From NCBI RefSeq assembly GCF_026914265.1, contig NC_069125.1:8185617-8249616 (forward strand): DNA of 64,000 nucleotides, given 5' to 3'. The notes beneath the pieces are model-generated. The model saw only the letters and a program-made list of their open reading frames with translations. It was not told where the DNA came from and ran no database searches. This document shows positions 9,601-50,700 of the stretch, one piece after another (position 1 is the first letter of the stretch; every line of letters begins with the position of its first letter). The position numbers and the translations under genes are program-made. This DNA comes from Mya arenaria. Taxonomy: Eukaryota; Mollusca; Bivalvia; Myida; Myidae.

Positions 9601-12600
9601 ACGTTATAAGGCAAAAAAGATATAATATCTTATTTTGCCTTATAAGCATTTGCTGATGTTATATTTAAATAAAGGAAACCCAAAATCGCGCATACCAGAA
9701 TCAATACCTCTCTGTCTGTTAACGAGAGCCTGTTTCTCAGGTGGGACGTATTCCCCTTCTTGCTCCACAACGAACGGCGAGAGGTGGGGTGGCAGGGTCT
9801 CCCCCATGAAGTAGTCCTTGACGGGCAGCAGCATGCGGGCGTTCACGCTGTCAAACACCCATTGGGGCTGCACATAGTACCTGTAGTGATAATGGAATAC
9901 ATGTACAAGGGGGTGGGGGGGGGGGGGGGGGGGGGTAGGGGGCAGTGTCTCCCCCATGAAGTAGTCCTTGATGGGCAGTTGCAAGCAGGCATTCACGCTG
10001 TCAAACACCCACTGGGGCTGCACATAGTACCTGCAGAGATAATGGAATACATGTAAAAGGGGGTTGGGGGGCAGGGTCCCCAAATGAAGTAGTCCTTGAT
10101 GGGTAGTAGCATGCGGACATTCATGCTGTCAAACACCTACTGCACATAGTACCTGCATGGATGGGTGAGTGCATATAGATCAGCATTACAAAAGATCAAG
10201 CCTAAATTTCCATATTATAAGGTGTGTTTCTTTTTAAAGGCAATATACCAAATACATCAGCATCAGACAAGGTACATTCATTTGTCTTATACTCTTGGAT
10301 GAATAAGCCAAAAGCACTTACACTAGTGCTAGGCATCAACATTTTAACAAGCCTTGCTGGTCTGCTCTCTACAGTTACGAATTTGAACAACCCCGGAAAG
10401 TATTTTACCATTGCAGAGTTGTACTAGTTTTGTACACTGAATGTCCACAAAATGTATGTATATTGTACTAGAATTGCACCATCATTCCAATACAATAATC
10501 AACAATAATCAACAAGCAGAAATTCATACACAAATGTTTGCAATCTAAAGTGATGGATTATGTAAAGTTAACACTTTGTGCAAGTCCTAAAAACAGTGCA
10601 GTGTCTTAAACCACTGATAACAGTAAACAAACATCAAACGAACCTAGAGAGGTATGTGTTTGCCATTGTCGGCCTGTCTACAATCTGATGCGTGATTTTC
10701 TCGTCTGTCTCCGGATAGCTTGACCCCACAGCATGGGTCGAGTGCCAGGATACCTCACCACCGAACGACCTGAAAACAATTTAATTTGTTTCAAATACAT
10801 GTTCCATCAAACCACCTGAATTTAGTGGTCACCTCTATTTTCTGGTCACTCAAAATTCCTCCGGTAAGCTTTTACCATATAAAGAACATTTATTAAGTGC
10901 CCAACTGTCAAATGCTGCAGCAGTCACTAACCTTTGTTCCCATAAAGCCTTTTTAGCACTAATGAACAGCCACTAATTCCCCCTTACTGACAATTCAACT
11001 AATAAATTCTCGTGCTGTGATTTATCAATTAAATCACATGTTTTTGAATAAATAGCTTTAATTATATGGACAATTATTCCACATGTTTTCTCATCGAGGA
11101 ATAATGTATATTACATGTTTGCAAATGTTTTGATCAGAATTAAGATACCGTAAATAGATGCTTGCATAAACATTATCAAGTCAATGATCAAATATTGCAA
11201 ATGAGCCCCGATTATTATGGATCTACAGTTTGCATTGTTAAAGCTACAAAATTCTATTAAATTCTATTTTCAGTACACACATTTCTCTTAATATTTATTT
11301 TTTTAATTTTGATCATGGGTGACAGTAAGACAAATCCCAAGTGTTTGACTCTGAGAGAAGGTGTTCGTCCTCGATAATCGTTTCACCACTACTTTACAGA
11401 TCATACACTTTTTTTAAAAACAATTTGTTGTTTTTTAACACTGACAAAACAATCTCTAATGTTATGATTATCATTAAGACAAAATATCTCAGAAAGTAAG
11501 CGAGGCCCTTAAAGACGTTCTGCAAATTAAGAAATATATCTGCAAGTCAACTCCACAAAAATATAACCTAATTTGATTATAAACACCAATGTTCCAGCAG
11601 CCCCTCTTAATCAAGATAAACTTAAAGACCCTTAATATATTTTCTGGAATTTCCCTTATAATATAAAATTGTAGTTCCTCACCTGATAATGAACACCAGT
11701 GTCTCGCGTGGCACCTCTCTATTCAAGAAGAACTTGAGGCCCTTAAAGAGGTTCTGGAATTTCTCCAGCTTTTCCTGCTCTTGTTTGGCCAGCTCAACCC
11801 TCTCAGGATCATCAGTCTGAAACAAGACAGCTCGTAAATCAAGGGCTGATAAAACATTCTAAATGCTTCTGTTTCATTGACACCCTGATATAATTGTAGT
11901 TAACATGGGCCTAAGTTAATATGCTTCTGTTTCATTGACACCCTGATATAATTGTAGTTAATATAGGCCTAAGTTAATATGCTTCTGTTTCATTGACACC
12001 CTGATATAATTGTAGTTAACATAGGCCTAAGTTAATATGCTTTCATCAATAATATGCATGGGAAAATGATCAGAGAAATCGGGTTAAAACTCTTTAATTC
12101 CATGTTGAATACACAGGGAGATGCAAAATTGGAACAATGGTCTGTGATAACTGCCAGTTCTGAAATTGGCCCATATAAGGAACTTGGAAATTATTTTGTC
12201 AAAAACAAACTACAATATAGTCAGTGATTTTTTTGGAAATATTTTCACCCCCTGTCCCTTGCAAATTGGGAAAAAAGTTGAAAATTACAAAATAAGGCAA
12301 AAATAGCTTATTTGATGGCAATAATACATGTTTTCACTTTTTTATGCATAGATTATGCTGTGAAATATTTCAAGAAATTCATTGCTTTTTTATTCATAAA
12401 TGTTATCTGCATTTATCAGATTGGGAAATAGTTATAATTTTTTTGGGGAAACAGCCCCAAACATGTTCAATCAATCTTAAAAGTTGGTATAAGTTATAAC
12501 TCATTACGTTTCACTTCCTGATGCATATGTTACTAAACCCCACCCATGAGAACCAATAGAATTTAATGTATTTATTCTGTATGACAGGAAATATTGATTT

Positions 12601-15600
12601 GTTCTTAAAACTATTCTCCAAAATTGCAGATCAGAACAAATTTCATAAGTTAATTTTAGATCTCTGCTCCAGAAACAAAAATTGGTTGAAGAAAAAGAAT
12701 AATGGTAAGATTCGGCGTATTAAATTGGTAAATGTACATACTCTTCCGGAGAATTTTGTCAATTGGCATAATGATGATTTTTCTGTTTTAAAATGATTAA
12801 ACTTGACATAATTTTGATTCTGGTTATTGATAATTGTAACTCGATTTGTAATTTGAAACTCAATGTATCATTCCTTTCAGACAACTTTAACCTCATTGTA
12901 TACTTTGTTTTAATATATGTATTCACTATGTGCCTGCATAAAGCCTCGTTATACTTAGCACTTATAATATTCTCATGTTTGTAAACTCTGTTTGCATTGA
13001 GTGTATGAATAAACTTTAAACTTTAAGAAGAGCTGTCACAGTAGGTGATTAATGCCCCCAGAGTGCCATCCAGCTCAATGGTTTAAGCAATACTTAAACA
13101 GTTGAACACCGTTGAAAACGCTGGAACCCAAACTGTTATTCCGAAATATCGTTATTTCGAAATAACAATTTTCAGAAAATGACAGGGTTCGCCTTCGCGA
13201 TGACGTGAAAAATTAAGTCGTGAAGAATGCAATGTTGGTTACATGTTATCAATATGATACATTCGGTTTGAGTGATCTTTCATATACATGTTTGTTGAAT
13301 TATTGTTTATATTAATAAATGACAAACAATTGGTTATAATACTTCTTATAACAACATTTAAAATTTAAAACAAAATGACAGCACATGTATGCATTCGGAA
13401 CATATAGCACAGTTGGTTACCAGGCCCTTCTCCAGATTGTTCGGTAGCCGTTCAAGTGAGCAATGAGGCGATCAAATCTGATGAGATGGACATTTTCGAA
13501 TGATATTAACCAGCAATTATGTACACACTACATCACCCAAATTAATTGCTCATTTTCCAACATCGATGTTTGTCACATACACATGCTCAATGTCACACTT
13601 TAACAAGCGCTAATTGTCACCTCAAGCTGATGCCGAATGCATTCGCAGTATGGTGTGAAAAACTATGAGATGATGGGAGTTCGAAAAAAGGACTGATAAA
13701 TAGGTGTAAAATACAAAAATGGGACTGTATTTTCACTGCGAAATAGTGATTTATTTCGGATAATAGATTAAAAATTTAGTTAACCAAAGATGGAATAAAA
13801 TCGGGAAAAAATAATTTCGAAATAGCGATAATTTCTGATAAACGGTATTCGGAATAGCAGTGTTCAACTGTATATATGCCTATATTCAGGAAGAGCTAAC
13901 ATACACTATAACCACATGATGGTTGACATGAAGTGTGGAGGAGTGATGAAGTAAGAGTTAGTAATGTAGGTCTTGCACGGGACAAACCGACTTTACGTAC
14001 CAAACATATGTCATTAATATACAATTCCTTCCTGCATGACAAAGTTACAGCTCAGACTCCAGACTGGACTGACAGATGGCGCAATTTTAATATGCCAACC
14101 TTTGAGGCATAAAAACAGTATTATTCCCTTTGTTGCAGAAAAGACCTAATTCGAAGATAAGTCTATTAGATATTTGACTGCAAGATTTATCTGGTACCTC
14201 TGAAGCAGGGAACTCGTCAATGTCAACTTCCTCCTCGGGCCCGCCTGTCCCTTTGACCTGTAACGTCTGGCTGAGGGCGGCCAGGCGCTGTAAAATATTC
14301 ATACATTTCCTTTATATATACATGTAGCTTTAGAACTTGCTCTAATAAGGTCCTTAAATAAGATCATGACATAATAAGTTTATGACATAGTACTGTAAGT
14401 TATCTAAACATCAATAACAACAGTTAATTAATATTTTTTAATAATTCAGATCAATTTGTGATGTAAAACACTCATAAAATTTCGGAAATCTACAGTTCAT
14501 TATTGATAAACTTTCTTTCTGTCCAAACTACCCATGTCACATGGGTAGTTTGGACAGAAAGAAAGTCTATCAATACAGGGTAATGATGTGGCATATGGAG
14601 GAAGGACATTATATTCACATTTCATAAAAACTACATTACCGGTAGTAAAAATAAGTTAAGTGTTTCAACCAGTCAATGACAAAGCAGAACTGTACATGTC
14701 TACATATGGTGTGTGGTTAACACATAATATATTTGGTAAGCTTGGCAAATCTCATACTTAATGGTTCAGGATAGCTCATTAAAGGTTCTTAATTGTAACT
14801 TTAACAATCTTTAATCTGTACAAATGTGACAATATAAGAAATATGTCAGAATTCTTTTAATATCTCAACTTTCTGTTAATTTCTTTTCAAAAAAAATAAT
14901 TCCTTTTATTTTCATTTTTAAACTTGCGAAATTCAAAGTCTACTTATAATTTGCCAGTATCTGAACCAAATTTCATATTTGCAAATAAACAATTTTGGAT
15001 GCAAAAAATTAATGAACTATGGTTCTCCATAAAATTAAATAACTTACATCTTCCACCGACTCCTTCTCCACAAACTTCCTTTCTCTTTCCTTTAATTTCT
15101 TCAGTTTCTCCTCATTTTTTCTCTTTTTGCCCCTTTGTTTCACTTTTGGCTCCTCTACAACCTCTTCCTCAGGACTGTCCAGCAGCAACTGAGTATTTAA
15201 ATTTCAAAATTAAATGTTATGCAAATCAAGTTGAGAAAAATATGGCTTTTTGAATTTTAATACGATCTTTTTGCAAGTGAAGGCATTCACATCTGTTGAT
15301 CAAAGTATATTTTACATGACATAATTGAAAATGATGTAAAGTGTGTTGTTGGAGCTCATAAATTAGAAGATAATACATATATTCATAAAGGCAAGAACAT
15401 GAAATAGAAAGCTGTAACATAACAAAACATTTTTAAGGAATGAATTGCATAATTGAATGTCATTATCGGGATATGAACACATAGTATCACTGTATGGGTA
15501 CTTTAACCAGCCCAACAGCATTCATATCCCCGCTAATGACATTAATCCCACAATTCATCACCTAAATTTACACCAATAGTTCATTATTTCATTCAAGAAT

Positions 15601-18600
15601 TGTTAAAACCATTAATTTCATTTATGAAAACCATACAAGAATTCTTTCTCACTAATTCTGTAAAACACAACAACAAGCCTACCATTACCCCAAACAGTTT
15701 ATCAAATGATGCCACAATAATGCGGGAAAAGATCAACCACGTAAAATCACTTTTAAATGTAAAATTGAAACACTAATGACAACAACACATTTAACATATT
15801 GTAAATTAACACTTTCTAAAATGTTGATTTAAGTTTTTAGGGGCCTGCTCACATAATGCAAACAATAACAAGATAAACAATTTTCTAACAAGATAAAAAA
15901 AAATCAATTTAATTAATTCGGGACCTGAACATATCCGAAAATGTTGCCATCATCGGATGATAACTACAATTGCTGAAAGGCATTTCATTTAAGGAATGAA
16001 AAATGAGGTGTAAATATTTTGATGTAAGCATGTAAAGCTTATTATCAAATCCACAATTTTGTCAAACATACATGCATGTAAATAGGTTACTTTTTACTTT
16101 CTGGGGCTTGGTTACGAACAGTCTCAAGTTCAAGTCTAGACACAGACTCAGAGACATTTTTATAAAGGAATTAAAAAATCATATTAATTCCATTTCTTTT
16201 ACAAAATTTATGTTTATAATAGTAAAACATTCAAACAGTAATATATTTCATTAAATCTTAACATCAATGCTCTGGTAGAAGGAAAATTACAATGAAATGA
16301 GGTTTTGCCATAACGAGTCTTGAGTCTGAACTCAGACTTGAGACTGTTCGTAATCACTGCCCCTGGGGGTTATTCAAGTTCTGTGATGGATGAAGGTACA
16401 ATACAATCTGATTAATTAATTTGCAACTTTTTATTCTTTTAATCCTTAACCTTATCCCAACCATTCTGATCCATGTAACTCAAACTAGCCCTTACAATAC
16501 CCCGTCCTGGCCTTACCCTAAAAGAAAGACCACTAAATTAGATGGGGGACAAATCTAAATATAAAGTCTAATCTTTATTTTATGCTTTATACCTTGGGCG
16601 GGTAGTGTAGGTTGAGCGAACTGTAACACTTGAAGTTGACGAAGCCAAGCAGCGTGGTGTAGAACTCAACAAACGTCTTCATAACCTTGTAATCTACATC
16701 TGTCGGGTGCTGTGAAGTGTAAATACTGGTTATTATTATAAGAAAACCAAAGAGTCTACCCTTCGTTCAATCTTTTATGTTCTACACTACATGCAAAACC
16801 AAAATAATATGGACAACGATCATGTAAATTTTATTTAAAGGCCTAGTTTAAGGAATGTTTGGCATGATAATCCCCTGCTGTGCATCTCCTGTTAATTGCA
16901 CTGGTGTCACAGTAGGGGCCAATTTCCTCTGTATTTGTTTATTGGCTTAGGGCCATTTAGGGTCCATTTCTATAATAATACCTCCAAAACTGAAATACTC
17001 AGATCAGAGATCTGATAAGAGGGATTAAGGCAAGTAGATGAAGATCCATACACAGAGTTTGTGAACTGTATACAGATTGGGGGGGGGGGGGGGGGGGGGG
17101 GGGTCTCTAACAGAAGGCTTAAACTAGGCCTTTAAGCCAAACTTTCCTAATGTCTCTAGAATGAAGAGGCCAAGTACCAAGGTGTTGGTAGGGTTAATGC
17201 CAGAAAGTACCAAAACCTTCTATATTTTAATGCCGCTTTTTACCTTCTGACTTTACCACACAAATAATACAGTCATACTTTCTATTGCCAAGTGAGGGCT
17301 ATTCCAGTAAAACATATTACCCATGAGGGGGAGGCATTTATATTAATAGTATATGGGTGGGTGTCTTTTTTCCCTAATTTGGACCAAAGAAGGGTAAAAT
17401 TGCTTCTGTAGGGGGTGCTATAATTTGAAAGTGCCTTCCCCCCCGGAAGTTATATGTTTAAATGGAATAGCCCTGACCTGATGCTATTAAAAACGTTTTA
17501 ATTATATGTTAAATGAACTACAAATTTAAAAACTAACTTTAATGACATAGAATGGGCTGATAATTAATTTTTAAGCATGAAATATTGAATGATGTGCTCA
17601 CATCTTTAAATATAAAGTAAAGTACGTCTGAAAAAGTTGTCTTAAATCTTGTTAGAAATATTGCTGATCACAAGTGTAGCCATGGAACGTTCAGAGCAGA
17701 AACAATTTGAAAGTTAACAACGAAGATGTTTACAATGCTCTTAACTCAAATAACATTCGGACAATCAGCCCAGTGTTTATAAAAAGCAATCGTGTGAATT
17801 ATACAAATCATCAACACACCATGTATAATACATGTATTTCATTAAAGATGCATTCTTAATGCCAAATAAGATTTACCACAATTAATAATACTGTTTTAAT
17901 ATTCGTAAAAGAATATATAAATGTCAGAAACAATGGTTCTTTTGAAGGATTCCAAGTTTAATTTGAAAGAAATGAACATAAAACACAGTATTTGTACCTT
18001 ATGAGACTATAGTAGACCACAGTAAAACTTTAAGCAATCACCAATCATTTAATACTTCTGCCTTTTCTGCTGTTAAATTCATGGTTTCAATTTTGCTATC
18101 AGTAATAAATATTTTCCATAAATGCACTATAGAGTAAGTAGTTAAAGGTTTATCAGTGAAAATTGATGTTTGTTATATATGTGTATGTATTAATTTTGAA
18201 TAAAAGTGTCACTTAAATACACTACTTACAGCAAACCCCGTACTATGAGGCAACACCCAGTTAACCACCTGGCCGAACAACTCGGCCTGGTAGTAGATCC
18301 CCTTGATTGAAATGAACACCTGAAATAGATGATAAGCCATGGGTTGATTTGGTTGATGTTTTCATATACATCTAAATGTACAATCTAGTTATGGAGCAAT
18401 CGCCAATCGTGTCAAACATCAATCCCTGCCGATGGGTTAATCATGTGACAATTGAAGAATCATGAGATCATTATTAGCGGAGAAAATGGATAAGGAAACA
18501 TGGGTATTTCCCTTCAGTGTTTTTCCTGTTCAGAAAGCTATTGTCAATTTATTAACTGATCAGGGCATAAAACACCAATTTTTCATATACCTTTGTGAAA

Positions 18601-21600
18601 TTGTTCTGTGCATAAAGATATTTAGTTTACAGGCAGTCTAAAACCACAAATATGTACTAGAACAATAGATGATTATAACTGTTAAGATGGTTTAAATTTC
18701 CTATACTTGAGATATTGGGGTCAAACATGTGCTTTTTTGCAAATATTGACAGCAGTAAAAGTAACAATTTAAAACTGCTATGGTTCCTAATCAGAAAACA
18801 CTAAATAGCTGTCACCAATGCCTGCTTGGTTTAGCTTCCAAAAAATAATAATCTCATACAAATCTTGATACCGTTAACTCTTTTGAAAGCGGAAATTGAA
18901 AGTAATCTGATTTTAGATCTATTTTTCTAGTTCACACCCATGTTTTCAGATAGTAAGTCAACCAATTATATATCCTTATGCATAAGAGAATTTTATGAAA
19001 AATGAGCTTTTCATTTTTTTAATCAAGCAATAAATATGATGGGGAATCCCATTGTTTCCAGATAGGTCAATCTCCTCCCCTGATAATGTTGAATTATAAT
19101 TATTCAATATCATACCTTATAAGTTATAAGATAACTGAATCATTTTTATTGAAATTAAAAAGTGTATGCTCAATGAATAATAACAGTTATTTAGTTTAAA
19201 CTTATTTAATTTTACAGCGATTGCGAAACAGGCTATTGCAACTTATATTAATCACTCTCGTTGGCTCGATGTTGTGCAAGATTGTGGTCTTGTGTTGTGG
19301 GGGGAACCGGAGTACTTGGAGGAAACCCACTTGTCCCGCTTGGTGACCACAAACCAAACTCACATGTGCCCAGACCAAGAAAATAACAGTTATTTACAAC
19401 TGAAACATGACTTGTTAGCAATAAAACTTAAAACTCAATGCAAAATTAACTGAACTCAGTCAATTTACCTTTCTCAATGACTTTGAAGCAATGACGAAGT
19501 GCATGAACTCAACAGATAGTCGCCGACACAGCTGTATAAACCGTGTGTCCGTTTCTTTGGTTTTCGGGAACACGGAGAACAGGAAGACCATGGACAGGCA
19601 GTCATCCATGTCCCTGATAGCGTCAATAAATGTCGGGTATCTGGAAACATTCACACAACATACTCTATAGTGTTTCAATTTGCAAGGGTTTAGATTTTAA
19701 TACAAATGTTTTGATCTACAGAAAAAGATGAATAAATATCGCTAACAATGGTTCTTATGAAGGATACCATGTTTAACTTAAAAAAGGTGCAGAAAACATG
19801 GTATTTCTATCTTATGAGACGTTAGTTGATCACTGTTAGTCTTTGAGCACTCGCCAGTCATTTAATATATGTGCATTTTCAGCTATTAAATACACGTTTA
19901 CAATCTTGTTATAAATCAGTAATTAAATTTTCCATAAATGCATTATTTAGTAAGGAGTTAAAGGTTTATCACTTTAAATTTATGATTGTTAAACATGTGT
20001 TTGTATTGATTTTAAATACGAGTGTAACTTTAATCAGTTTTCAACAATCAATCAGGTAAATTTATTAAAAATATATGAAAATATTCAAGTTACTAACGTT
20101 TTCCTTCAACTGTGCAAATGTTAAACTTTAGAAAGTTGAACCAAATCAAATAATAATTGACCGAATGAATCCATTACCTTTCTTTTACAATATGATCAAG
20201 CTTATATTTGGGCCTGTTCCTCCTGATTCTTGAGGCTGAGTTCATATTCTTGGTGCCATATGCTCTCTTCAATCTCCTCATGAAATGCTAAAGAAAAACA
20301 TCATACAACAAGTAGAAGCAATATTCAGGTACATGTATATAATATAAGGAAGCCTATGAACATTTAAGCATGTCATATTAATCAATTAAAATAATTATGT
20401 AGTTTTTGTTAATAGTATTTTATTCTCTACACTTAACCCTTTTCATCCAAAATTGGCAATGATGCCCATTGGATACCTCAAGAAATCACCCACAGAGTAA
20501 TCTGGGTTTCTGCTTTACTCACACAACTTAAAAATGCAATTTGCAATATTGATTGAATTTAATCTGCCATTCTGGTATCCACTAATTTGTAGAAGAGGGG
20601 CAGGGTGCTAATTTTAATTTTATGATCAGTTTAAATTAAAACAAAAGAATTATTTGACAGTCGTTTAGTATTCAAGTGTAGGAATAATAATATAAAAATG
20701 TTCCTCCTTTTTACCTCAGTAATATGGAGAGAAAAACTACACTGTTAAGAAGTCAAACTGTGAAACAATAAGTATTGTAACAATTAAAAAAAAATGCTGT
20801 AATAAAACAAACTAAAAATGCATTGAAAGAAGTACAAACCTGTTCAACTATACAGATGTATTGACATTATTCTCACCTTAAACTCTCTGAACTTGTTAAT
20901 AAGCGGCTCATGGAGAAGGAACTGTATGTCCTTGACAAAGTAGTAGGTGCGAGGTGCCTGATTTCCGTGGCCTACAACCTTTCTGTGCCGTGGTTCCACT
21001 GGGTAGATGCCCTTCAGGATACATAGCCGCCTGGAAACAATTTTGTTTTCTTCATTAAATGATTTAACTGATCACATGTTGAGTATTTCATGTTTTTGTC
21101 ACCATTTCAGGAAGGTGGTCATGGCCTTTAAGAAAATGTGCCGTTGTTCAACCATTAGTGTTGCAGAGTTAAGTATTTTTTTTATTTTTTTACTTTTATC
21201 ATAAAATTATAGCAGTTGCAAGTTTGTTTTTTTGGTGACTTAGCAGATTAACTCACCAATTGGCTGTGTGGTTTTGTCAACACCTCAGAGCATTTAGGCA
21301 CACGCTATGCAAGTCTTTCTGTGAATTCTGTTTTTTTCTCCCATTTTTTTCCCTTTTCAAATTTAATTCAACATTGCTTCTTTGTGAAAAAGGCATAAAA
21401 TGTTACTTAAATCTTATCATCTAATTTGTGCTCGATCGAGCAATAGTTCCCAGATCAAGCAACATTGTCTGATTTGACAAGTTTTGCCAGCATTAGATAA
21501 TCCTTATTTAAATTTTAACAATTATTATACCTAAAATCCTTCAGAGATATTTGTAATTTCTTGATGGCTTTTGTCCTGTGGATGTAAGCTGTGGCCGCCC

Positions 21601-21914
21601 CACTTGTTCCCTGGAAATCGACAAAAAGATAGGTATTTAAATGGTTCACATAACTGATATTGATTAGGAATTAGATGCTTCAGGTTGTGCTCAAACTGCA
21701 GCCGTATAGCAAAAAGCAAATGATGATTTCTTTCAAAAGACAAATAAGAAATTAAAGAATTAAAGATAACAAGTTAAGTCACAGTTAATCTTTTCGAAAA
21801 AACAACCTTGTTTTAGGTACGGAGTTGTATTCTGTGTAATCAATACAATACTGAGTGCTTCAAGTAATAACTGCATACAAAATATTACCATACCTTCTTC
21901 TTCGGTCTGCCCAT
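6674..21914 (-). CDS. PES1: Pescadillo homolog (PES1), 16 coding exons, 621 aa
   Basis: Nucleolar protein of the PES1-BOP1-WDR12 complex needed for 60S subunit assembly. Exons: 21914-21894, 21610-21531, 21030-20877, 20287-20178, 19640-19469, 18319-18230, 16709-16593, 15188-15048, 14287-14198, 11816-11683, 10769-10644, 9880-9708, 9282-9130, 8153-8095, 7679-7512, 6751-6674. All introns are GT-AG and the frames join exactly (1866 nt). The start has a good context (AAAATGG) and gives MGRPKKKG. The N-terminal pescadillo domain (residues about 7-290) includes [24 protein letters not shown] and [17 protein letters not shown] domain follows (about 347-446; [22 protein letters not shown]). Then come an acidic Glu/Asp/Ser tract (about 470-520) and a Lys-rich tail. 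Length is close to human PES1 (588 aa). Introns beside exons 10 and 12 contain decayed copies of those exons' edges. Confidence 0.96.
7021..7330. repeat. Possible decayed interspersed repeat in PES1 last intron region
   Basis: Between PES1 exons 16 and 15. The phrase GACCAAATTTGGTGATGATT and partly repeated GGTTATC-AAACTTG/GAACCTG motifs resemble old dispersed repeats common in mollusc genomes. This rests on recollection of style, and the family is not identified. Confidence 0.3.
7881..8043. mobile_element. Tc1/mariner-type MITE, 163 bp
   Basis: Ends CAGTCAAACCCTGCT and GGGGTTCGACTG are inverted repeats. TA flanks both sides (7879-7880 and 8044-8045), the target duplication of the Tc1/mariner superfamily. 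It lies in the PES1 intron between exons 15 and 14 and has no transposase. Confidence 0.75.
9890..10165 (-). repeat. Two decayed partial copies of PES1 exon 12 in the preceding intron
   Basis: Copy one (about 9942-10068) repeats the intron end, the AG acceptor and the first ~90 nt of exon 12; it still reads [13 protein letters not shown] followed by [14 protein letters not shown]. Copy two (about 10072-10160) is shorter, with a deletion across QPQW. A G-run lies between the true exon and copy one (9910-9937). Neither copy has the exon's 3' half or its donor, so neither is a usable alternative exon. They lie upstream of the true exon in transcript order. Confidence 0.85.
11498..11668 (-). repeat. 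Two decayed partial copies of PES1 exon 10 3' edge
   Basis: Sequence at 11582-11665 aligns with the 3' half and donor edge of exon 10 (11683-11816): both share AACACCA-TGT, CTCTT-AT-CAAGA and TTCTGGAATTTC in the same order. A shorter match with GAGGCCCTTAAAGA lies at 11502-11530. Both are downstream of the true exon in transcript order and are too mutated to be functional exons. Confidence 0.7.
11855..12045. repeat. 62-bp tandem repeat, 3 copies
   Basis: The unit includes TATGCTTCTGTTTCATTGAC and TGATATAATTGTAGTTAA, repeated three times with few differences. It lies in the PES1 intron upstream of exon 10. Confidence 0.85.
12560..13030 (+). other. Possible old retroposon 3' end
   Basis: Open frames at 12566-12796 (76 aa) and 12793-12984 (63 aa) overlap, match no family I know, and are followed by ATGAATAAACTTTAAACTTT (13004-13023), a short-repeat tail like those of CR1/L2-type LINEs. 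It lies in a PES1 intron on the opposite strand. The assignment is tentative; chance open frames are the alternative. Confidence 0.3.
13099..13870. mobile_element. Tc1/mariner-like MITE, about 772 bp
   Basis: Outer ends CAGTTGAACACCG and GTGTTCAACTG are inverted repeats. Just inside both ends are runs of TTCCGAA/TTTCGAAAT sequence in opposite orientation. TA follows the right end, but the left is flanked by AA, so the target duplication is not intact. It is non-coding, within a PES1 intron. Confidence 0.65.
14501..14575. repeat. 75-bp near-perfect hairpin
   Basis: Arms of 37 bp around a single central base (14538) pair with one mismatch; the centre reads CCCATGTCACATGGG. It lies in the PES1 intron between exons 8 and 9. 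It could be a minimal foldback element or a structured RNA segment; the one-base loop argues against a canonical microRNA precursor. Confidence 0.7.
17842..18216. mobile_element. MITE family D copy 1
   Basis: Starts TTAAAGATGCATTCTTA and ends AAAAGTGTCACTTAAA. Shared interior landmarks of this family are AACAATGGTTCTT and TTTCCATAAATGCA. It lies in the PES1 intron between exons 7 and 6. Five other copies are in this window (19695, 24524, 35537, 36413, 37890). Confidence 0.7.
19695..20033. mobile_element. MITE family D copy 2, left end missing
   Basis: Interior and right end match family D (AACAATGGTTCTTATGAAGG; right end GAGTGTAACTTTAA), but the left terminal sequence is not recognisable. 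It lies in the PES1 intron between exons 5 and 4. Confidence 0.6.
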
Positions 21915-25268: not shown

Positions 25269-25339
25269 CCAGTAGCAAGTTTTATAATAATGATTGATGG
25301 CTTACCCTTATTTGAAAAAAAAACACACTTCTACGTGGT

Positions 25340-26692: not shown

Positions 26693-29600
26693 ATGAATGG
26701 AGTTCACGGAATGCCGGGATTTGACGGTGAGTGTTTTCATTTTTGTAATTTCATAACTCTTAATGGGGGGGGGGGGGGGGGGGGGTTAACCCTCGTCTTG
26801 GTACGCTTAATTCAGGGGTCTTTGAAAGGAGCAATCCGGACTCAAGTAAGTGGTATGGCATAATGCGGTACGCAAAAAAGACAACACATTAAAATGACAT
26901 TTATCTTTACGCAGAATCTCAAGAAAGGCCAACTTTTTGTTATTAGAAATGGAAGGAGTATTCGGTTTACAAGGGGGAGGGGAGAAGAGGGTACACCCTC
27001 CTTACTCAAACTATAATACATCCTTTATTTAAAAGTTTTCAATGTTGTAAGATACCAGAACCTATAAAATTAGTTGCGAAGATGTGAAATGTTTTCAAGT
27101 TCTTGGAATATATGCCTACTTAAATGTTATAAGGGAAGGAGGTGGGGGGGGGGGGTGATGGGCTACACCCTCCTTTCTCATACTAAATATAATACATTAC
27201 ATCCTTATTTGTATGTTTTCAATGTTTTGTAAGATATCAGAACCCATAAAAACTAGTTACGCAGATGTGAACTGTTTCCAACTTCTAAGAATTAATGTGT
27301 ACTGACATGTATGTTAAATTGATATCAAGTTTTTTAAATATCTGTCTTCTAACTTACTGACATACATGCGCATAGCCGCACGTTAGTGAAATATAAAATT
27401 ACCGACTACAAGTAACCATAGTGACGTTGTGAACTCGCCTAATATTGTGATAATATGTAAATCAATCACAAGTATGTCATATTTAAAACAACATGAGAAA
27501 ATCTTATTGATAATTTGATATCAAAATACCGTGAATGCGATAACTAGAACGATGGACTTGATTTAAAAAAAAAAAACTAATGCGTATATATACATATTCC
27601 TTTATTCTGTTTTGTAAACCATACAAAGTTTATAGTGTCACAGAAACGCAAGTTATATGCAATAAGTATAATGAAATCATTTTATCAAAATAATCAGTTT
27701 TTGTTTTAATAATGATTTTGTTATACTTATTACATAATGCTATTGTTGCTCACATTGCGTATACCACTTGTAGCAGAGTTTAGATTGATGTGCATATTAT
27801 CAGATCTTTTTTTTATCCATGCGAGATATCTTGTATCTTTACTTATTGCCCGCGATTGGTTTTAACTGCACTATATATGCATGCAGTGGCGTACCTAGCG
27901 TTACGCAAATACTTCAGCGCGTACTACTGAAAAAAATAACAAACGTTTTAATTGCGAAATTTGAAGTAAAAACGCAACCCTTACCCGGTTAAGGCACAAT
28001 GGTACCCATAATAGTAACATGTAAAGCAAATCGAGGGGTGAATGCGAAAAGGTTCTAAGTGACATTAAATAAAGAAGCAGATAGAACCTTTTCGCTTTCA
28101 CCCCTCGAAATGTTACAGTTCAGTACAAGACGCAATGGTTGGAAAAAAAGCCGGAATGTTTCATCTTTGTTTGAATTTTACGTGTGATTTGTGTAAAATA
28201 ATAGCGTTTTTAAAGCACAAAAAGCCATAAAATATACGGCAAATTGCACCGTCAAAAGAAATCACGGGGGAAGATGCCCCCGAACCCCCCTTCAAACTGG
28301 TTGCGAGTACATGTTAGATATCTCTAGGTACGCCCCTGGCATGGCGAATATGCACCAAATAACAATCATTGCAAAACAATTGAATTGAATAAATTTTCAG
28401 GCATTTAATATATTTCAGTGAGCAAATTTGTAAACATAAAGATTCATTGACAACACACATAGTATGATACTACAAGGAAGTGAAATGCAGCTTTCTATTC
28501 ATTAAAAAAATAAATCGCTCAAGGTTTCAACATGAAAAGGAATTCTAAATTTAAGAATTTCATTAAAATATTTTCTCGATTATATACCATATCTTTTACA
28601 AACATGAGCCTCCGAGAAGAAAATGTTGCAAATAGGATTCGTCATGCAGGTTTGCACTATTCATTATGTTTATGCAAACCTAAATCGACTCATCGCCTAT
28701 TTAGTAAAACTGTACTTTAATTTTGGAGTTTCTTTCAGGTCAGACTTGTATGAATTAAATTTCGTTACAATATCATGAAAATCAAGAAAGTTCGAAAGCC
28801 ATCTATAGCTTTTGTTTGAATAGAAATACAGCAAAATTGGTATCAATATTATATTTCTATCAGGTTTCAATTTCATACTAATCATGCTATCGTTGTATAT
28901 TTAAGGAATAGTTCAGATCGCGGAGGGCCTCCTAACATTATACAGTGTGTGTATACCACGTGATAAATTGCGTCATAAATGCTACGTCGGAAGGCAATAT
29001 ATTGCTTCGATTGAAGACTTAAAACAATGATAACTTTTCATTTTCTTTACCATTTTAAATGAAACATAGCGCAGTCTATGCAGCTTAGGGAGCCCCGCCT
29101 TCGGTCTTTTACCAAATTTTGATTGAGAGTTTAGTTTCTTATAACACTTCGACAAACCTTTTCACGATACGGCCGTCTGACGGAGCACTGTCAAAACATT
29201 GTTTGGGAAACAGGTTTGTCCAAGTGTTTGATGAAACTAATCACCTTATCAAACTCCGGTTATAAAACAAAGGTGGGGCTCTTTAAGCTGCATAGACTGG
29301 CCTTTGTTTCATTTAAAATGGTGAAGTAAGCGAAAAGTTATCTTTGATTTAAGTCTTTATTTTAAGCAAAATATTGCCTTCCGACGTAGCATATATGACG
29401 TAATTTATCAGGTGGTATACACACACTGTATATTGCCGCCGACCAGTTGAATATTAAAGGTCCATTCACTGTTTGTGTGCTGACTGCGAGGTCACTTAAA
29501 TGGCAGGAGGTACAAAGTCGTCTGAACTATTTATCATACCATGCTGCACTTCTTAGCGTGGAACTTAAATAGGAAGATGTTTCTACATAAAAAACATCTT

Positions 29601-36915: not shown

Positions 36916-37141
36916 CACGTATACATATTTTATAGCGCATTTATGTCTCACCATATGTTAAAAAACAATGATTAAGAATTTTTTTAACATCTTCCTCAAT
37001 TTATAAAAATGAAGACATTTTCAAGTTTGGTTCAACCGCCATGCCTGTTCAAAATATACAACATTTCTGGGACAAACGGACAAGTTATTTCTGTCTTTGA
37101 GTACAAAGTTTCTTTTCACGAGATATATGACGTAACATCCG
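36916..37141 (-). other. 3' flank of the membrane-protein gene
   Basis: Presumed 3' UTR of the gene at 37142-40668. No exact AATAAA was found within it. Confidence 0.35.
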
Positions 37142-40668: not shown

Positions 40669-40709
40669 CGTTCTTGTTATTGTTGTTGTTGTTTAAGGCG
40701 TTGTTGTCG

Positions 40710-41728
40710 CTGCAAATATCTGAATAAATAACAAAATGGAAATACTGACAAAATATCAATAAAAATGGGTAATATAATAAATGGAAATATCATTCATTTA
40801 AAAGGAATGTCATTTAGATGCACTCGCTTTAACAGAACAAAAAAAAAATAAAAAAAAATAAAGCAAAAATGTTCAAATATTTGTAAATAAGCGTCTTTTA
40901 AATGTTATCAAAATAAATATAAACACGCACATTCATTATAGGTGAGTCAATTTGCACCATATTTTTATCATTAAAGGTAAAAACAAACCATCAGAGCTTT
41001 TGATGAACACAATTTGAAAAATGGATTCTATAACATATATATAGAGATACAAGAAATCACTTAAAAATATAAAATATCACTTACCGAAAATATTTTACAG
41101 ACATATCCAAAATCCACGACATTTATTTCTAACCGCCATCGTCATAAGCAATGATCATAATTCAAAATATCATCTTAATCCTTTCTTTTTGGGGGGTTTT
41201 AACAAATACTCTTTTTCGTATGGTGTGATTTCATATGAATTTTAATAACATTGCACAGTATGACGATTTAAGCAAGATTTTATTTTAAACTAAAGCTAAG
41301 TCACACAACTGTATCTTATTGTTGGTTTTTAGTTTTTTTAAGCCCTGCATGTATTAATTCGTATTTCAATTGTCAAACTAATCTTTTAAACCTAGCGATT
41401 AACCTGACCAAAACACGATCGTGTCGAATCTGGTGACATTTTTAGTTTTAAGAAGCAAACCTACCATAATCGCTTACGTATTAAATTAACATAAATATTT
41501 TTCATGACAAGCACTTTATTATCAAACACTTTTACAATGTTTTAAGAGTAAATTGAAAATCATGCAAAGTTAACTCGTTTTAGGATTACTGGTTTCAGAG
41601 TGGAATATTATTGAAACAGCAGATTTTTATTTGTAAGAATCTATCAAAATGTTTATGAGATATTTCATAACAAAACCGAAACAATATTTCAAATTCATTT
41701 TGCTATACAAATGCAGTTCTATGTGATT
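40710..41728. other. Intergenic between membrane-protein gene and kinase gene
   Basis: The 5' UTR exon of the membrane-protein gene appears to begin at 40709, after a TTTGCAG acceptor, so at least one more non-coding exon should lie in this stretch; I could not place it. The rest is AT-rich with nothing recognised. Confidence 0.4.
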
Positions 41729-41734
41729 TTTATT
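41729..41734 (-). promoter_or_regulatory. Kinase gene polyadenylation signal
   Basis: AATAAA on the minus strand about 60 nt past the kinase stop codon (41795-41793). Confidence 0.6.
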
Positions 41735-41792
41735 AATGTTTCCGTATTGAAAGAATCTTTTTTTTGAAAAAATGCGTTTTCAAAACATTCTT

Positions 41793-44700
41793 TTAAGTAA
41801 TCGAAGAGTGCACAACAACTCGTTGTTTGGGTTTCACGGGACTGGTTTTCCCGGAAGCTCCGCGCATCTGCCGCCAGCTTCTTCCGTTGGCCGATGCCCA
41901 ACGACCGTTGCTGGCCCTGGTCGGGGATTCGCGTGTCGGGGAGGTCTGGCGGTCAGTGGTTGCGCTTGTCGGGAAACGGCCGTTGGCGGCGCGTGTCGGG
42001 GAGCGGCCACTGACGGCGCGTGTGGGCGAAGGTGAGGACTTCCGGGCCTGGTCCTGCACGGGCTCCGGGGGACACGGGGTCGTTTTTAAGGGCTGGACCA
42101 ACAGGTGCGGCAAGCCGCTGTTCCTAGAAAGATTATTATAAAACATATACAGTGGGTTAACGAACAGAAAAGAACAACATTATTAAGATGCTCGCTAAGA
42201 AAGTTAGTTTGAAGAATGTCATGATAATTCTTCAATCTTCTTTGATATAGCACATTTTGCAAATGCCCCGAAGAAAACATCGCTCAATTTAAGCCAATAA
42301 TATTGACAGGAAATCGTAAAATACTAGGGTAAATCATTTAATAATTGCCCTCTCTGTTTAAAAGATCGCCTTCTGCCACTCATCCGATACACACTCCCTA
42401 TGGCAGATTTTGCGTTGAGCAAATGGGTTTGTATTCTTAGTCAGTCAGATCACTCGAAGTCAAATCTTAATGATTCAGACGGGCTCGTTTGATACTCTCA
42501 GTCCGTCCATTCTCAACCATAAATATTTTTCTTCATGTCATCTAACTATTTCATAAAGCGTTTTACAGAATTCACAATATGCTATGGCCTTTGGCAATAA
42601 AAGGAAAATAAATCAAGATAGCGCCTGAAAACTGTGCAAAAAGGGAGACAAATCTAGATAACTTGTGTATACTGTGCATAAAGGGAGTCACATCTAGATA
42701 TCACATGTAGACTGTGTATAAAGGGAGATAAATCTAGATATAACATGTAGACTGTGTATGAAAGGGATACAAATCTAGATACCACGTGTAGACTGTGTAT
42801 TAAGGGAGATAAATCTAGATACCACGTGTAAACTGTGTATAAAAGGGAAACAAATCTAGAGACCACGTGTAAACTGTGTATAAAAGGGATACAAATCTAG
42901 AGACCACGTGCAGACTGTGTATAAAAGGGATACAAATCTAGAGACTACGTGTAGACTGTGTAAAAAAGGGATACAAATCTAGAGACCACGTGCTGACTGT
43001 GTATTAATGGGATACAAATCTAGAGACCACGTGCAGACTGTGTAAAAAAGGGATACAAATCTAGAGACCACGTGTAGACTGTGTATAAAAGGGATACAAA
43101 TCTAGAGACCACGTGCAGACTGTGTATAGAAGGGATACAAATCTAGAGACCACGTGCAGACTGTGTATAAAAGGGATACAAATATATATACCATGCGCTG
43201 ACTGTGTATAAAAGGGATGCGAATCTAGATACCACGTGCAGACTGTGTATAAAAGGGATACAAAGCTAGAGACCACGTGCTGACTGTGTATTAATGGGAT
43301 ACAAATCTAGAGACCACGTGCAGACTGTGTAAAAAAGGGATATAAATCTAGAGACCACGTGTAGACTGTGTATAAAAGGGATACAAATCTAGAGACCACG
43401 TGCAGACTGTGTATAGAAGGGATACAAATCTAGAGACCATGTGCAGACTGTGTATAAAAGGGATACAAATATATATACCATGCGCTGACTGTGTATAAAA
43501 GGGATGCGAATCTAGATACCACGTGCAGACTGTGTATAAAAGGGATACAAAGCTAGAGACCACGTGCAGACTGTGTATAAAAGGGAAACAAATCTAGAGA
43601 CCAAGTGCAGACTGTGTATAAAAGGGATACAAAGCTAGATACCACGTGCAGACTGTGTATAAAAGGGATACAAATCTAGAGACCAAGTGCAGACGGTGTA
43701 TAAAAGGGATACAAAGCTAGAGACCACGTGCAGACTGTGTATAAAAGGGATACAAAGCTAGAGACCACGTGCAGACTGTGTATTAAAGGGAGACAACTCT
43801 ATATATCACACGTAGACTGTGTATAAAAGGGATACAAATCTAGAGACCACGTGCAGACTGTGTATAAAAGGGATACAAAGCTAGAGACCACGTGCAGATT
43901 GTGTATTAAAGGGAGACAACTCTATATATCACACGTAGACTGTGTACAAAAGTGATACAAATCTAGATACCATGTGCAGATTTTGTTTCAAGAGATGAAA
44001 TTTACAAAGGGAGACCACATGTCGACTGTGTATAAAGGGAAAGAAGTTTAGATACCACGTGTAAACTTTGCATATATATTGTGCATACCCGTCACATTTC
44101 TGAACTGCTTTCTCGTCGTTGCTGTAGTTCCTCAAAAGCCTATCCCTGAAGTACTTGACTCGCTCTCCGGGGCTTCTGGATGGGTTCACCATGTAGTTCA
44201 CGAGACCCGTGCCCCGCCCCGCCATGTCATTGCCTGGCCCCGCCTGGAGGGAGATGCGCTCATATATATAAGTATTTTTCGGACTGATCAAAGTGATTTT
44301 TAAAAACAACAACTTATGCTCTAGTTCTAACATTGTTTTAAAGACTAATGTCGATTTTTCGTAATCACAAGTAAGCACAAGGTTAACACATTTTTGGTAC
44401 ACATAGCCTTACCCTATTTTTACGAGCGCCTGCGGAAGGCGGTTTAGCAACTTTGTCTCTACCGCTGGCTGACCTCCGTGTAACATGAGCGCTGAATCTT
44501 TCACTGTCGGCAATCGCAGCTTGAATAAGTTCGCCGTTTTCCAGAGTAACGCATTCCTTCGATTGTTTTCGGCTTGAAACGACTTCCGCTTCCGCTTTAC
44601 AGCACGCGCAATTTGTCGCCGGATTGTTTTTGAAGCTGGCTTCCTTTCCGGCCATGTACTGAACACATAGTAATACATAAAACATATTATGTAAACATGT

Positions 44701-47700
44701 TAAATTATGTAATTTATAAATGAAATAATGCAACAGATTTAATTCAAATTTCAGGCAAATTCAACTAAAAAGTAGCAATACTAATGTGGATTTGAAACGT
44801 TGTGTTACCTTATCCATAAACCATTTAGAAAGCTTGATGTTTTCGATGTTTTTGGCGCCGGAATCCACGGCGCTCCTTTTTGTGTGCTCGCTGCAGCCGA
44901 GCTTTGTGACGACAACAGTAGCGGTGTTGTTCCGGTGGCCGGCGGACGGGGTGCGCGTCGGGGGCGGCTGGGGACCAGGCTTTCGGTCGGTGCGGGGCCA
45001 CGTTTTAGGGCGCTGGGAGACAAGCGGACCTCGGATCCAGATGTTCTCTGTAATAAGGAAGTAATTGAATTATGAAAAAATAGTATCGTTTACAATACAG
45101 TTTAACGAACAAATTAAAGCGAAATATATTTAAAAAGTTAACTAATAATGTAAATAGATTTAAAAAATAAATAAATAAAAAGGGTCGAGTTCCGCCGTAC
45201 AATCGGGTAACCACCAGGCGCCTGTTCACGGACGCGATCCCACTACTGCTTGACACGGGAACTTTTGCCTGCTGTGTCACCACCCTGGGCCGTTACGTTC
45301 CTCCTTAGACAACCTGGACCCCAAGAGCTCCCCCGAGGGGCCCATATTGATGCCGAGCTTAGTGCGGACGCCCGATCGACACAGACGGCCTGGAGGCTAG
45401 ACTCCCGGTCGTAGACAGTCCTCAAACCCCGGCCTCCAAGTAGCTAGATTACAGGAGCACGCCACCACTCCCAGCCGATAGACTAGACAGTCAGTTGTGC
45501 ATATAAAGTTTATTTTGTTGTCAAATTAATTATTTTCTTCTTTTTTTCATGATTTTTTTTTGTTCACAATAATTCATATCTTAAAACTTTATTTTGCACT
45601 TTGAAGGGAAGAAATACGTTACAAAAAATAAATATTCGATACGTGGCACGGACAAAACGTCACAGTATCATGTGACCTCCTATTTGAAACATGGCGATCA
45701 CATGATCATAGCAACTCATTGACAAGATAAGGCCAGAGGCCATCCGCACCAATCGTGACAACTCGGCCATCTCCGGCAAGCTTCGGTCATATATGTTGGA
45801 TAATGCCCGAGGTGTTCCGATTATATAGAATTTGAACTTATCTTGATGTTATACAGTATATGCACGCTTATAATTCACAATGCAACAAACACATACAATT
45901 GTATACAATTAAACAGAAGCTGTAACTGTGTGACTTAAATAAAAATACAAGGACATATAGGTGGCACTGAAGTTCGGGTTAAGTCCAATTAATTTTAGAT
46001 AATTTAACGATTGCCTGTCTGACTAATGTACAGCAGCGAGAGACTCAGAATACCCCCCCCCCCCCCCCCCCCCCACACACAATAATTCTGGTAACTTTTC
46101 AAAGTTACTATTGTAACTATAGTTCTTTATTATATTTAAATTCACCATTTATAATTTCCTTCCGTTATGTATAACGTTTAATGCCCACGATTGATGTACA
46201 TGTATAACTATCTGAAATATAAACTGGTTAAACCAAGATTAATAAAACATCATAGGTTAGGCCTACTTGAAATATAAATGTTTCCCACATTCCACGTACC
46301 AGGTAGATTGACTGTATTAGCGAAAAACAGACGCTAGAATGCTGTTGAAACAAAATAGATTTTTGTTTCAAGCTGAGCTTTACTCAATAGATAAAATATA
46401 ATCTGATTGGTGTGTGTGTGTGGGCTGGGGGGGGGTCAATGTGTGGTTAACATTTCATATATTATTTAAGGCCATGTGTACGTACTTTTTTGACGGGCGC
46501 CTGTGCGACTCTTCAATACAATTGTTTCCTTTTGATCATGGTTGACGGAAACCGCCGATGCAGAGCCGCGTTTCTGATCTGTGGTCTTGTAGTAGATCGG
46601 CTGGGTGCCGCCGACGCCCATGCTCGCATCGGAGCCGCCACGCGCTGCCTCTTGTTTTGGTTTCTTCTTGGAGTCGTTATTGTTCTGAAATACAGTTTCA
46701 TAGAAGATAGCTCCAAGTCAGGCAGCAACGCTTTTAAACACTTGATTTATATACAGATAATGACTATCACAGTTAAAAGCAACTGAAGACGTGTTTTGCT
46801 GTACTCCAATGAACCCGATTAGTTTGAGACAATGACATCGTAGCATAAACGGAGTGAGAAATCGGAATGCGTAGAAGACTATATCATAATATGATCGGTC
46901 TGGTGACGTATCGCCTCGGAATGTCTGCCACGGTTGTAATCTATAAGCATATTAGATTCTGTACAGAAGAACATATACTCACCGTCCATCTCGGCTTGTT
47001 GGGCTGGCGGGGAATGGCTAGGTGGCCGGTGAGCCAGGGATCCGCGATAATGTCCGTCATGGTGGGTCGGGCGCTGGGCTGGTATTGGAGCATCCGGCGG
47101 ACGAAAACCATCGAGTCTGTAAAAATGCATTTAAATGCATAAACGTATGTTCTTATTTTATTTTCGTTGCAAAGTGATTATAAGGAAATACGTCCAGAAA
47201 GGTATCGTACTTATCATGTAGGTAATTATAATAATATAAGGTATATGTAAGGAGCATTTGTATGAGATATTGAGATTTAGCTACATGCTACAACACTTAT
47301 TTTAAGATTCTATATCTCACCAAAATTGACGGTCCTTTCGAACCGGATTCTCTGCATCTTCATTTCTTCCTCGAGCTCACACAGTTGGGCGTCGTTGAAC
47401 GGTAGCCGACCGTTAAGCATGGCAAACAGAATGATACCCCTACAGGTCAGATATAAAATGATACTTAGTCTAGTACAGTTGGGCGTCGTTGAACTGTAGC
47501 CGACCGTTAAGCATGGCAAACAGAATAATACCCCTACAGGTCAGATATAAAATGAGACTTAGTCTAGTACAGTTGGGCGTCGTTGAACGGTAGACGACCG
47601 TTAAGCATGGCAAACAGAATGATACCCCTACAGGTCAGATATAAAATGAGACTTAGTCTAGTACAGTTGGGCGTCGTTGAACTGTAGCCGACCGTTAAGC

Positions 47701-50700
47701 ATGGCAAACAGAATGATACCCCTACAGGTCAGATATAAAATGAGACTTAGTCTTGTACAGTTGGGCGTCGTTGAAGGGTAGCCGACCGTTAAGCATGGCA
47801 AACAGAATGATACCCCTACAGGTCAGATATAAAATGAGACTTAGTCTAGTACAGTTGGGCGTCGTTGAACGGTAGCCGACCGTTAAGCATGGCAAACAGA
47901 ATGATACCCCTACAGGTCAGATATAAAATGAGACTTAGTCTAGTACAGTTGGGCGTGTTGAACGGTAGCTGACCGTTAAGCATGGAAAACAGAATGATAC
48001 CCCTACAGGTCAGATATAAAATGAGACTTAGTCTTGTACAGTTGGGCGTCGTTGAACGGTAGCCGACCGTTAAGCATGGCAAACAGAATGATACCCCTAC
48101 AGGTCAGATGTAAAATGAGACTTAGTCTAGTACATTTTGGCGTCGTTTAACGGTAGCCGACCGTTAAGCATGGCAAACAGAATGATACCCCTACAGGTCA
48201 GATGTAAAATGAGACTTAGTCTAGTACAGTTGGGCTACGTTATACGGTAGCCGACCGTTAAGCATGTCAAACAGAATGATACCCCTACAGGTCAGATTTA
48301 AAATGAGACTTAGTCTAGTACAGTTGGGCGTCGTTGAACGGTAGCCGACCGTTAAGCATGGCAAACAGAATGATACCCCTACAGGTCGGGTACAAAATGA
48401 GACTTAGTCTAGTACAGTTGGGCGTCGTTGAAGGGTAGCCGACCGTTAAGCATGGCAAACAGAATGATACCCCTGCAGGTCGGATATAAAATGAGACTTA
48501 GTCTAGTACAGTTGGGCGTCGTTGAACGGTAGCCGACCGTTAAGCATGGCAAACAGAATGATACCCCTACAGGTCGGATACAAAATGAGACTTAGTCTTG
48601 TACAGTTGGGCGTCGTTGAACGGTAGCCGACCGTTAAGCATGGCAAACAGAATGATACCCCTACAGGTCAGATGTAAAATGATACTTAGTCTAGTACAGT
48701 TGGGCGTCGTTGAAGGGTAGCCGACCGTTAAGCATGGCAAACAGAATGATACCCCTACAGGTCAGATGTAAAATGAGACTTAGTCTAGTACAGTTGGGCT
48801 GCTTTGAAGGGTAGCCGACCGTTTTATAGCATGGCAAACAGAATAATACACCTACAGGTCAGATATAAAACCCTAAATCAAGTACAGATTGGCGACTTTG
48901 AAGCGTGGCAAATTTAAAATGAGACTTTGTTCAATACAGTAGGGCGTCGTAGAAGGGTAGTCAGCCGCTTAGCATGACAGACAGAATTCTTCCCCAACAG
49001 GGTAGATATTAAATGAGATTGTGGCAATTAAATTTAGGCGAAGTTAAGGGAAGTCAACCGTTCAACATTGCATACAAGACGATACCCCAACATGACAGAT
49101 AAAACATGATACTTAGTTAAGAACGTTGTTGTTTATTCGCATGATGGTTATAGCACGGTTAAGCCCCGCCTACTCGTTACCGTTCCAATATTGGAGATAA
49201 TGTATATTCGCAAACAAAGAAAACAGTTCCTACCGGACATTTATTTGATATAATCATGATATTTAATGTTTCTGTACTCACAGACTCCAGATGTCGGACT
49301 TGGTTCCGTCGTAGGGGCGGACTCTGATCACTTCCGGTGCAGTGTACGCGTATGAACCACAGGAAGTCTTCAGCAAGGCGCTCTGGCCCGGAAGGAAAGT
49401 CGTGGAGAAACCGAAATCTGAGGACGAATACGGAACAACACAGTATAGATTTTCTGTATAATATAACATTTCATTTTTATTGCTTCTAAATATGTTTGTT
49501 TTCTTGACACAAATCATGAATTGCCGTTAATGCATTGACATTTTAAAATGATTAAGTTAAGACATAATTTATTTTTGGTGGATGTTTTAAAAACGGGATT
49601 TGGTTGGATTTTTTTTTTAAAAGACATGATTTGATTATGGTTTGTTATGATTTTCATTACAAACCTGTTATTTTATTATGCTTACAGACGTGTACGATTT
49701 TCATCACGTACCTGTTATTTCATTATGCTTACAGACGTCTACGACTTTCATCACGTATCTGTTATTTCATTACGCTTACAGACGTCTACGACTTTCATCA
49801 CGTACCTGTTATTTCATTATGCTTACAGACGACTACGACTTTCATCACGTACCTGTTATTTCATTATGCTTACAGACGTCTACGATTTTCATCACGTACC
49901 TGTTATTTCATTATGCTTACAGACGTCTACGATTTTCATCACGTACCTGTTATTTCATTATGCTTACAGACGTCTACGATTTTCATCACGTACCTGTTAT
50001 TTCATTATGCTTACAGACGTCTACGATTTTCATCACGTACCTGTTATTTCATTACGCTTACAGACGTCTACGATTTTCATCACGTACCTGTTATTTCATT
50101 ACGCTTACAGACGTCTACGATTTTCATCACGTACCTGTTATTTTCACATTTTCGTCTTTATCCAGAAGGATGTTCTCACACTTGAGGTCTCTAAAGAATA
50201 ACAACACAACAAGCTTCAGAAACTGGTAAACACTATTATAAGTATTTGAAGAAGCGTTTTATTTTAAGTAAGACATGTTTAAGATATGGTGAAAAGGTAA
50301 ACCTTGGTACCGCAAAACACCCTACGCCCAGGAAAAGTATATCCAAATATTTGGCCATGGTGCAAATCCTGATCTTGCCTACGGGCAAAAATTAAAAAAG
50401 AAATACCCGTATTGTTACTATTTTTTACTACTCACAAAAGAGTTCTAGTGAAAGAGACATTTTTTACCAAATTATGTTTAAGATGGTACAAAAAGCATTT
50501 AACATGACCCGTCGTGTTCATCCAAACCCTCGCGCAGGTTATTCTGCAAAAACTTGGTAAACCTCGTTTCCACAAAAACCTATGCTAGGGTTTGGATGAA
50601 CCTATGTAACGCTCTTGGCCATGGAATATACTTATAATCCTACACTCTTGGCTAAGGTAGACACTTATACTCCTCATTGTGGTCTTTCTATTTTTCACAC

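Follow-up and report, generated by a model that had tools for sequence, protein, structure and literature searches.

Tandem copies of exon edges in the introns of two genes of the bivalve Mya arenaria: a probable set of mirage-type minisatellites

Why should the edge of a coding exon recur, splice site included, many times over in the intron beside it? The question is raised by a 64,000-nucleotide (nt) stretch of the genome of the bivalve mollusc Mya arenaria (contig NC_069125.1; "the window" denotes this whole stretch), in which two genes, encoding the pescadillo homolog PES1 and a TSSK5-like kinase, carry such copies at several of their exon-intron borders. Gene models were obtained by a spliced search requiring exact translation and GT-AG introns, and are complete for three genes with 32 exons and 58 internal splice borders. 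Copies of exon edges are found at the acceptors of PES1 exon 12 and TSSK5 exon 6, at the donor of TSSK5 exon 4 and, in decayed form, at the donors of PES1 exon 10 and TSSK5 exon 3. In all likelihood these arrays are minisatellites of the type known as mirages from amphioxus, that is, a set of border-crossing tandem repeats in a bivalve that is neutral and tolerated by splicing.

At the acceptor of TSSK5 exon 6, the 94-base-pair (bp) unit comprises 35 intronic and 59 exonic nt and is arranged in 15 young edges, among them the real one (47439 to 48754), followed at the far end by three old, decayed ones (48851 to 49087). Departures from the consensus number 0-6 in the young edges and 23-27 in the three at the far end, and the AG is retained at 16 of the 18 edges, the losses being confined to two of the three old copies. 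The 59 exonic nt encode a 19-residue stretch of the kinase that is identical in the orthologues of Mercenaria and Ruditapes, which identifies the coding exon 6 as the source of the unit. More generally, the exonic parts of the arrays encode kinase and pescadillo residues common to Mercenaria, Ruditapes and Dreissena proteins, and copying therefore proceeded from exon to intron; the units at exons 6 and 12 derive from coding sequence. All nine matches to the 94-bp unit reported from the 1.216-Gb assembly, a lower bound from a search that omits very common words, fall at the TSSK5 exon 6 locus. Matches at other loci, as a dispersed satellite or a transposon-derived repeat would give, were not among them, and a local origin of the array is supported. 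Comparison of 13 young copies revealed 15 exonic and 15 intronic differences, the former divided into nine non-synonymous and six synonymous ones (74% non-synonymous expected), so that no clear coding constraint is visible.

The array at the donor of TSSK5 exon 4 has kept the GT at 10 of its 11 edges, and with just 9 nt of the 47-bp unit being exonic it is the weakest young case for an exon origin. In PES1, all three exon 12 edges carry an AG; in the exonic part, identity to the real edge amounts to 88% for the nearer and 78% for the farther copy, and the values are 88% and 71%, respectively, if some flanking intron is included. The similarities between exons and their intronic copies, decayed ones included, are far above chance (Table 1). 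On the side of PES1 exon 10 opposite to its decayed copies, 46 nt upstream of the exon, a 58-bp unit is repeated about three times (11863-12042).

A preliminary description of the window, whose exon numbering is identical to that of the spliced models, had listed four cases. Its three acceptor edges at PES1 exon 12 and its about 11 donor edges at kinase exon 4 agree with our counts, and its about 17 acceptor edges at kinase exon 6 are borne out as an array, with a count of 18 including the real edge. Three of the four cases are thus the young arrays. The fourth, PES1 exon 10 with three decayed donor edges, was overcounted, as there is one decayed donor copy besides the real edge, along with a piece of the exon interior; TSSK5 exon 3, a fifth and likewise decayed case, had been overlooked.

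Table 1. Positions of the two genes, of the exons concerned and of the copies of their edges in the window.
Feature	Position	Strand	Basis and details
PES1 (pescadillo) gene	6677..21914	-	16 coding exons; gene model; Pfam Pescadillo_N and BRCT_2
PES1 exon 12, real exon	9708..9880	-	gene model
PES1 exon 12, acceptor-edge array	9783..10157	-	real edge 9880; copies 10030 (+150 bp) and 10152 (+122 bp)
PES1 exon 10, interior piece without donor edge	11502..11528	-	27 bp; z 10.0
PES1 exon 10, donor-side copy, decayed, GT lost	11567..11652	-	z 16.6 against 200 shuffles
PES1 exon 10, real exon	11683..11816	-	gene model
TSSK5-like kinase gene	41796..58749	-	12 coding exons; gene model; Pfam Pkinase
TSSK5 exon 6, real exon	47321..47439	-	gene model
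TSSK5 exon 6, acceptor-edge array	47381..49117	-	94-bp unit; 18 edges including the real one
TSSK5 exon 4, donor-edge array	49646..50143	-	47-bp unit; 11 edges including the real one, last partial
TSSK5 exon 4, real exon	50135..50190	-	gene model
TSSK5 exon 3, copy of the 3' part, decayed, downstream of donor	50773..50874	-	z 26.3
TSSK5 exon 3, real exon	50919..51118	-	gene model

According to the gene models and the comparisons between copies, the real exon is complete at one end and the added copies are intronic. When a segment E2-I1 that crosses one border is duplicated in tandem, the resulting order is necessarily E1-E2-I1-E2-I1-I2. Any such duplication keeps the exon whole and adds its copies to the intron, and the geometry common to the cases is to be expected without a special mechanism, selection or polarity. 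Slippage or template switching at the border, with selection keeping one full exon, had initially been suggested; the intact exon at the end of the array is indeed observed, but selection is not needed as the cause of this arrangement.

The arrays also show a structure in age. In each of the three young ones, divergence from the real edge is highest in the innermost copies, i.e. those farthest into the intron. At exon 6 the innermost copies show 24-26 differences from the real edge compared to 1-7 in the others, and at exon 4 the innermost copy, which is partial, shows 17 compared to 0-3. The corresponding divergence trend at exon 4 has a rho of 0.87, although the last copy is partial, and that over all exon 6 copies a rho of -0.56, resting on the three old copies. 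It is likely that selection on the exon preserves an array at its exon end, whereas the opposite end escapes homogenisation, as is reported for the boundaries of the BflGb6 cluster of amphioxus.

Protein records give an indication of how such introns are spliced. The spliced PES1 model is letter for letter identical to P0121 (pescadillo homolog isoform X2, Mya arenaria). The kinase matches the TSSK5-like protein P0002 of Mya arenaria at 96% identity across 53% of the query; its model consists of P0002 altered at the acceptor of exon 5, together with an N-terminal portion obtained by translating the window, and agrees with P0002 save at this acceptor. In all three Mya protein records that we compared (P0002, P0121 and P0123) the exon-proximal copies are used, and none of the three contains a new intron, which suggests that the array-bearing introns are correctly spliced. 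Use of any of the 15 distal AG-bearing edges of exon 6 is predicted to lead to an early stop, as is splicing at each of the 10 distal positions of exon 4 (nine with GT), while use of the nearer PES1 exon 12 copy would insert 50 residues in frame and use of the farther one would lead to a stop. P0002 has 12 additional residues before DFGF through the use of an upstream AG of TSSK5 exon 5 (region 49417-49470); the conserved KITDFGF suggests that the downstream acceptor is the likelier one.

We propose that replication slippage or unequal exchange led to the tandem duplication of a short segment which by chance crossed an exon-intron border, and that in two cases the resulting pair was amplified further, to 18 and 11 edges. 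In favour of this, direct repeats are locally common, both in the window and in the sample of other loci described below. As the complete exon would have kept its link with the outermost splice site, such an event would have been near-neutral. The spliceosome would continue to use the exon-proximal site, as the protein records suggest, and the surplus edges would be removed together with the intron. With time, the copies deepest in the intron would decay, and those adjacent to the exon would remain alike.

This scenario closely resembles the mirages of amphioxus, which have been described in Adh3, in the globin genes BflGb6 and BflGb9 and in troponin C, with similar arrays in PGBD5 (PMC3087553, PMC3902484). 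Mirages share with the Mya arrays the tandem, border-crossing units on the donor or acceptor side, the intact real exon, the many AG or GT copies and the occurrence in several genes per lineage (PMC3087553, PMC3902484). They are reported to leave regular splicing undisturbed and to vary in length in the case of Adh3 and BflGb6 (PMC3087553). Unit lengths are 10-72 and 150-160 bp in amphioxus (PMC3087553, PMC3902484) and 47, 94 and 150 bp in Mya. The edge of the BflGb6 cluster is reported to be excluded from homogenisation (PMC3087553), and likewise the innermost copies are the most diverged ones in the young Mya arrays. In contrast, the BflGb6 haplotypes have six and three units (PMC3087553), whereas the Mya exon 6 array has 18 edges; moreover, lancelets belong to a different phylum, and splicing and copy-number variation were tested in amphioxus, while the bivalve arrays are known from one assembly. 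Two further systems are related. In a potato RNA-dependent RNA polymerase gene, a tandem genomic duplication crosses one intron-exon boundary and copies the acceptor side, but potato makes use of the new intron and exonic segment created in this way (PMC4974935), in contrast to the Mya protein records, which show no new intron. Similarly, internal tandem repeats or minisatellites at exon-intron boundaries are described for human segmental duplications, where they are reported to create alternative splicing and novel introns (PMC2812944), whereas the Mya records show the ordinary exon. No bivalve case was found among the entries listed, mostly the top-ranked ones, in the literature searched, including queries on boundary repeats in bivalves and on tandem repeats and introns in Mya; provisionally, this would thus be the first report of mirages from a mollusc, and in the same literature arrays under the name "mirages" appear, again provisionally, for lancelets only.

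Several results weigh against the assignment of the Mya arrays to neutral mirages that arose by chance at borders. The young exon 6 copies alone do not show a significant divergence gradient (rho -0.21, P = 0.47). Furthermore, their per-site differences amount to 2.0% in the exonic and 3.3% in the intronic part, and the lower exonic rate might reflect a degree of constraint or an exchange with the exon; we have no confident explanation for it. Finally, in a seed test that relates the number of border-crossing arrays to unit length, three of the seven young genic arrays cross a border while 0.53 are expected (P = 0.010), and with the decayed ones included five of nine do so compared to 0.86 expected (P = 0.0005).

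The seed test would be in line with a mechanism that seeks borders, in which exon-intron borders are preferred for tandem duplication, for instance owing to an abrupt change in base composition, to R-loops or to replication stalling at borders that are transcribed and spliced, and in line with this a single gene, TSSK5, holds two arrays and one decayed copy. We regard such a mechanism as unlikely. The seed test is post hoc and small, was applied to a window chosen for the pattern, and excludes a decayed intronic pair that spans no border (26973-27310, 76% identity), an exclusion that favours enrichment. A strict count, in which TSSK5 exon 4 is treated as non-spanning and one of the two 44-bp arrays of TSSK5 is dropped, gives two of six (P = 0.076). 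Decayed exon copies should be easier to recognise than decayed intronic repeats, since selection holds one of the copies. Judged by position, borders are rarer in repeats than expected: local direct repeats cover 17.1% of the window positions, and three of the 58 borders lie within them compared to 9.9 expected (circular shift, P(3 or fewer) = 0.014), a test on which a few long arrays and purging within exons have some bearing. With a more sensitive probe, four of the 58 borders fall into repeats, compared to 149 of 600 intronic and 49 of 400 intergenic points. Where origin is concerned, the seed test is the more appropriate of the two; position and seed tests give opposite answers, and a preference for borders in this genome is neither shown nor excluded.

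To see how the window compares with the rest of the assembly, we sampled 24 ten-kb loci, four beside the window and 20 at fixed positions. Local direct repeats make up 20% of these 240 kb and are unevenly spread; two of the 20 loci away from the window consist largely of local tandem repeat (L024 1-10000 and L014, fractions 1.0 and 0.80). Exon borders were predicted with a home-made codon and splice-site model, for which leaving out one gene at a time gave 12 correct predictions out of 13 and a recovery of 12 of the 26 internal exons. None of the 30 borders predicted in the sample is spanned by a local repeat. A looser predictor likewise gave none among 58 borders at threshold 10 and none among 68 at threshold 8, zeros that weigh little because in the window this predictor detects the exon 4 array and misses those of exon 6 and PES1 exon 12.

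As a second sample, with exons identified by homology, we searched for exons of the myosin-head family, scoring 65 of 319 candidates, and examined eight clusters with 34 of the 96 exon matches listed. None of the 68 edges of these 34 matches is spanned by a local repeat, the one above-threshold similarity lying outside the edge. Among the 96 matches, inspected by eye, one pair overlaps by more than 10 query residues (19), and its DNA contains no direct repeat of at least 14 bp. Given the absence among the 68 edges, an array density such as that of the window is probably unusual. When the window is compared with the myosin sample, Fisher tests yield P = 0.019 for five, P = 0.042 for four and P = 0.095 for three of 58 borders, but are biased, as the window was chosen and the myosin clusters are poorer in local repeats (3.9%). 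Independently of edges, the myosin-head matches often form near-equal pairs far apart (C1, 35.15/45.02 Mb; C3, 81.78/83.09 Mb; C4, 45.13/46.51 Mb; C7, 46.6-46.8/60.7-60.9 Mb), with mirrored order and strand on C1 and C7, i.e. large duplications or retained alternate haplotypes.

Taken together, the original argument that several cases within about 40 kb imply a repeated local mechanism rather than chance finds backing in the seed test but not in the position test or in the myosin-head edges. Similarly unlikely is the extension of a border-seeking mechanism to this clam lineage, according to which a border-tied process would make borders the preferred birthplaces of minisatellites, their growth would be allowed by the tolerance of splicing, and intronic satellites of unclear origin would often be decayed exon edges.

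A regulatory function is very unlikely. Decoy splice sites might regulate the two genes, for example by slowing intron removal or by inducing nonsense-mediated decay, and the retention of AG at 16 of 18 acceptor edges and of GT at 10 of 11 donor edges would suit this idea, as would the early stops predicted for the tested distal TSSK5 edges and the predicted in-frame insertion from one PES1 copy. However, the near-identity of the young copies is explained by their youth alone, the splice signal is gone from the decayed PES1 exon 10 copy and from two of the three old exon 6 copies, and the young exon 6 copies lack a clear coding constraint. Equally improbable are copy numbers inflated during assembly or polishing: although tandem arrays are difficult to assemble, the published Mya assembly is described as made from PacBio reads with FALCON-Unzip, Hi-C and 10x polishing (1.22 Gb, 17 scaffolds; PMC10663159), and the genome draft is termed aberrantly assembled in the case of amphioxus BflGb6 (PMC3087553), the differences of the copies from their consensus and the existence of decayed copies show that the duplication is real, with the exact numbers not secured.

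Neutral mirages tolerated by splicing thus remain the preferred reading of the arrays at exon edges, and TSSK5 contains repeats of other kinds as well. Intron 2 harbours two large arrays of one 44-bp unit (52293-55153 and 56869-57651), about 1.7 kb apart and in opposite orientation, so that a very long hairpin is possible in the TSSK5 transcript. An array of about 33 copies of a 41-bp unit (42597-44074) begins 14 nt past the donor of exon 11 and includes no exon sequence, and about 55 copies of GAT (ATC on the gene strand; 58023-58188) are found in intron 1, about 18 nt past exon 1. Within intron 8, there is a full-length match to the metazoan signal recognition particle RNA (240 bits, model 1-299; 45179-45475, minus strand). 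The third gene of the window has four exons, lies on the strand opposite to PES1 and TSSK5, and was matched at 100% by P0241 of Mya arenaria, to which its spliced model is identical letter for letter.

Tandem arrays have reportedly served as a source of introns (Rogers 1989; Zhuo et al 2007; Gao and Lynch 2009), and have in common with the Mya cases an internal gene duplication that takes in splice signals. The arrays described here may serve as intermediates in the emergence of introns that has been proposed to occur through tandem duplication. They also provide a natural series of near-identical, competing splice sites, with 16 AG acceptors in one intron, for testing the exon-proximal choice made by the spliceosome, and they advise caution to annotators, as a single intron can carry many recurrences of exon edges. 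That two bivalve genes hold three young and two decayed cases suggests that such arrays may generally result from the frequent tandem duplication found in invertebrate genomes rich in repeats.

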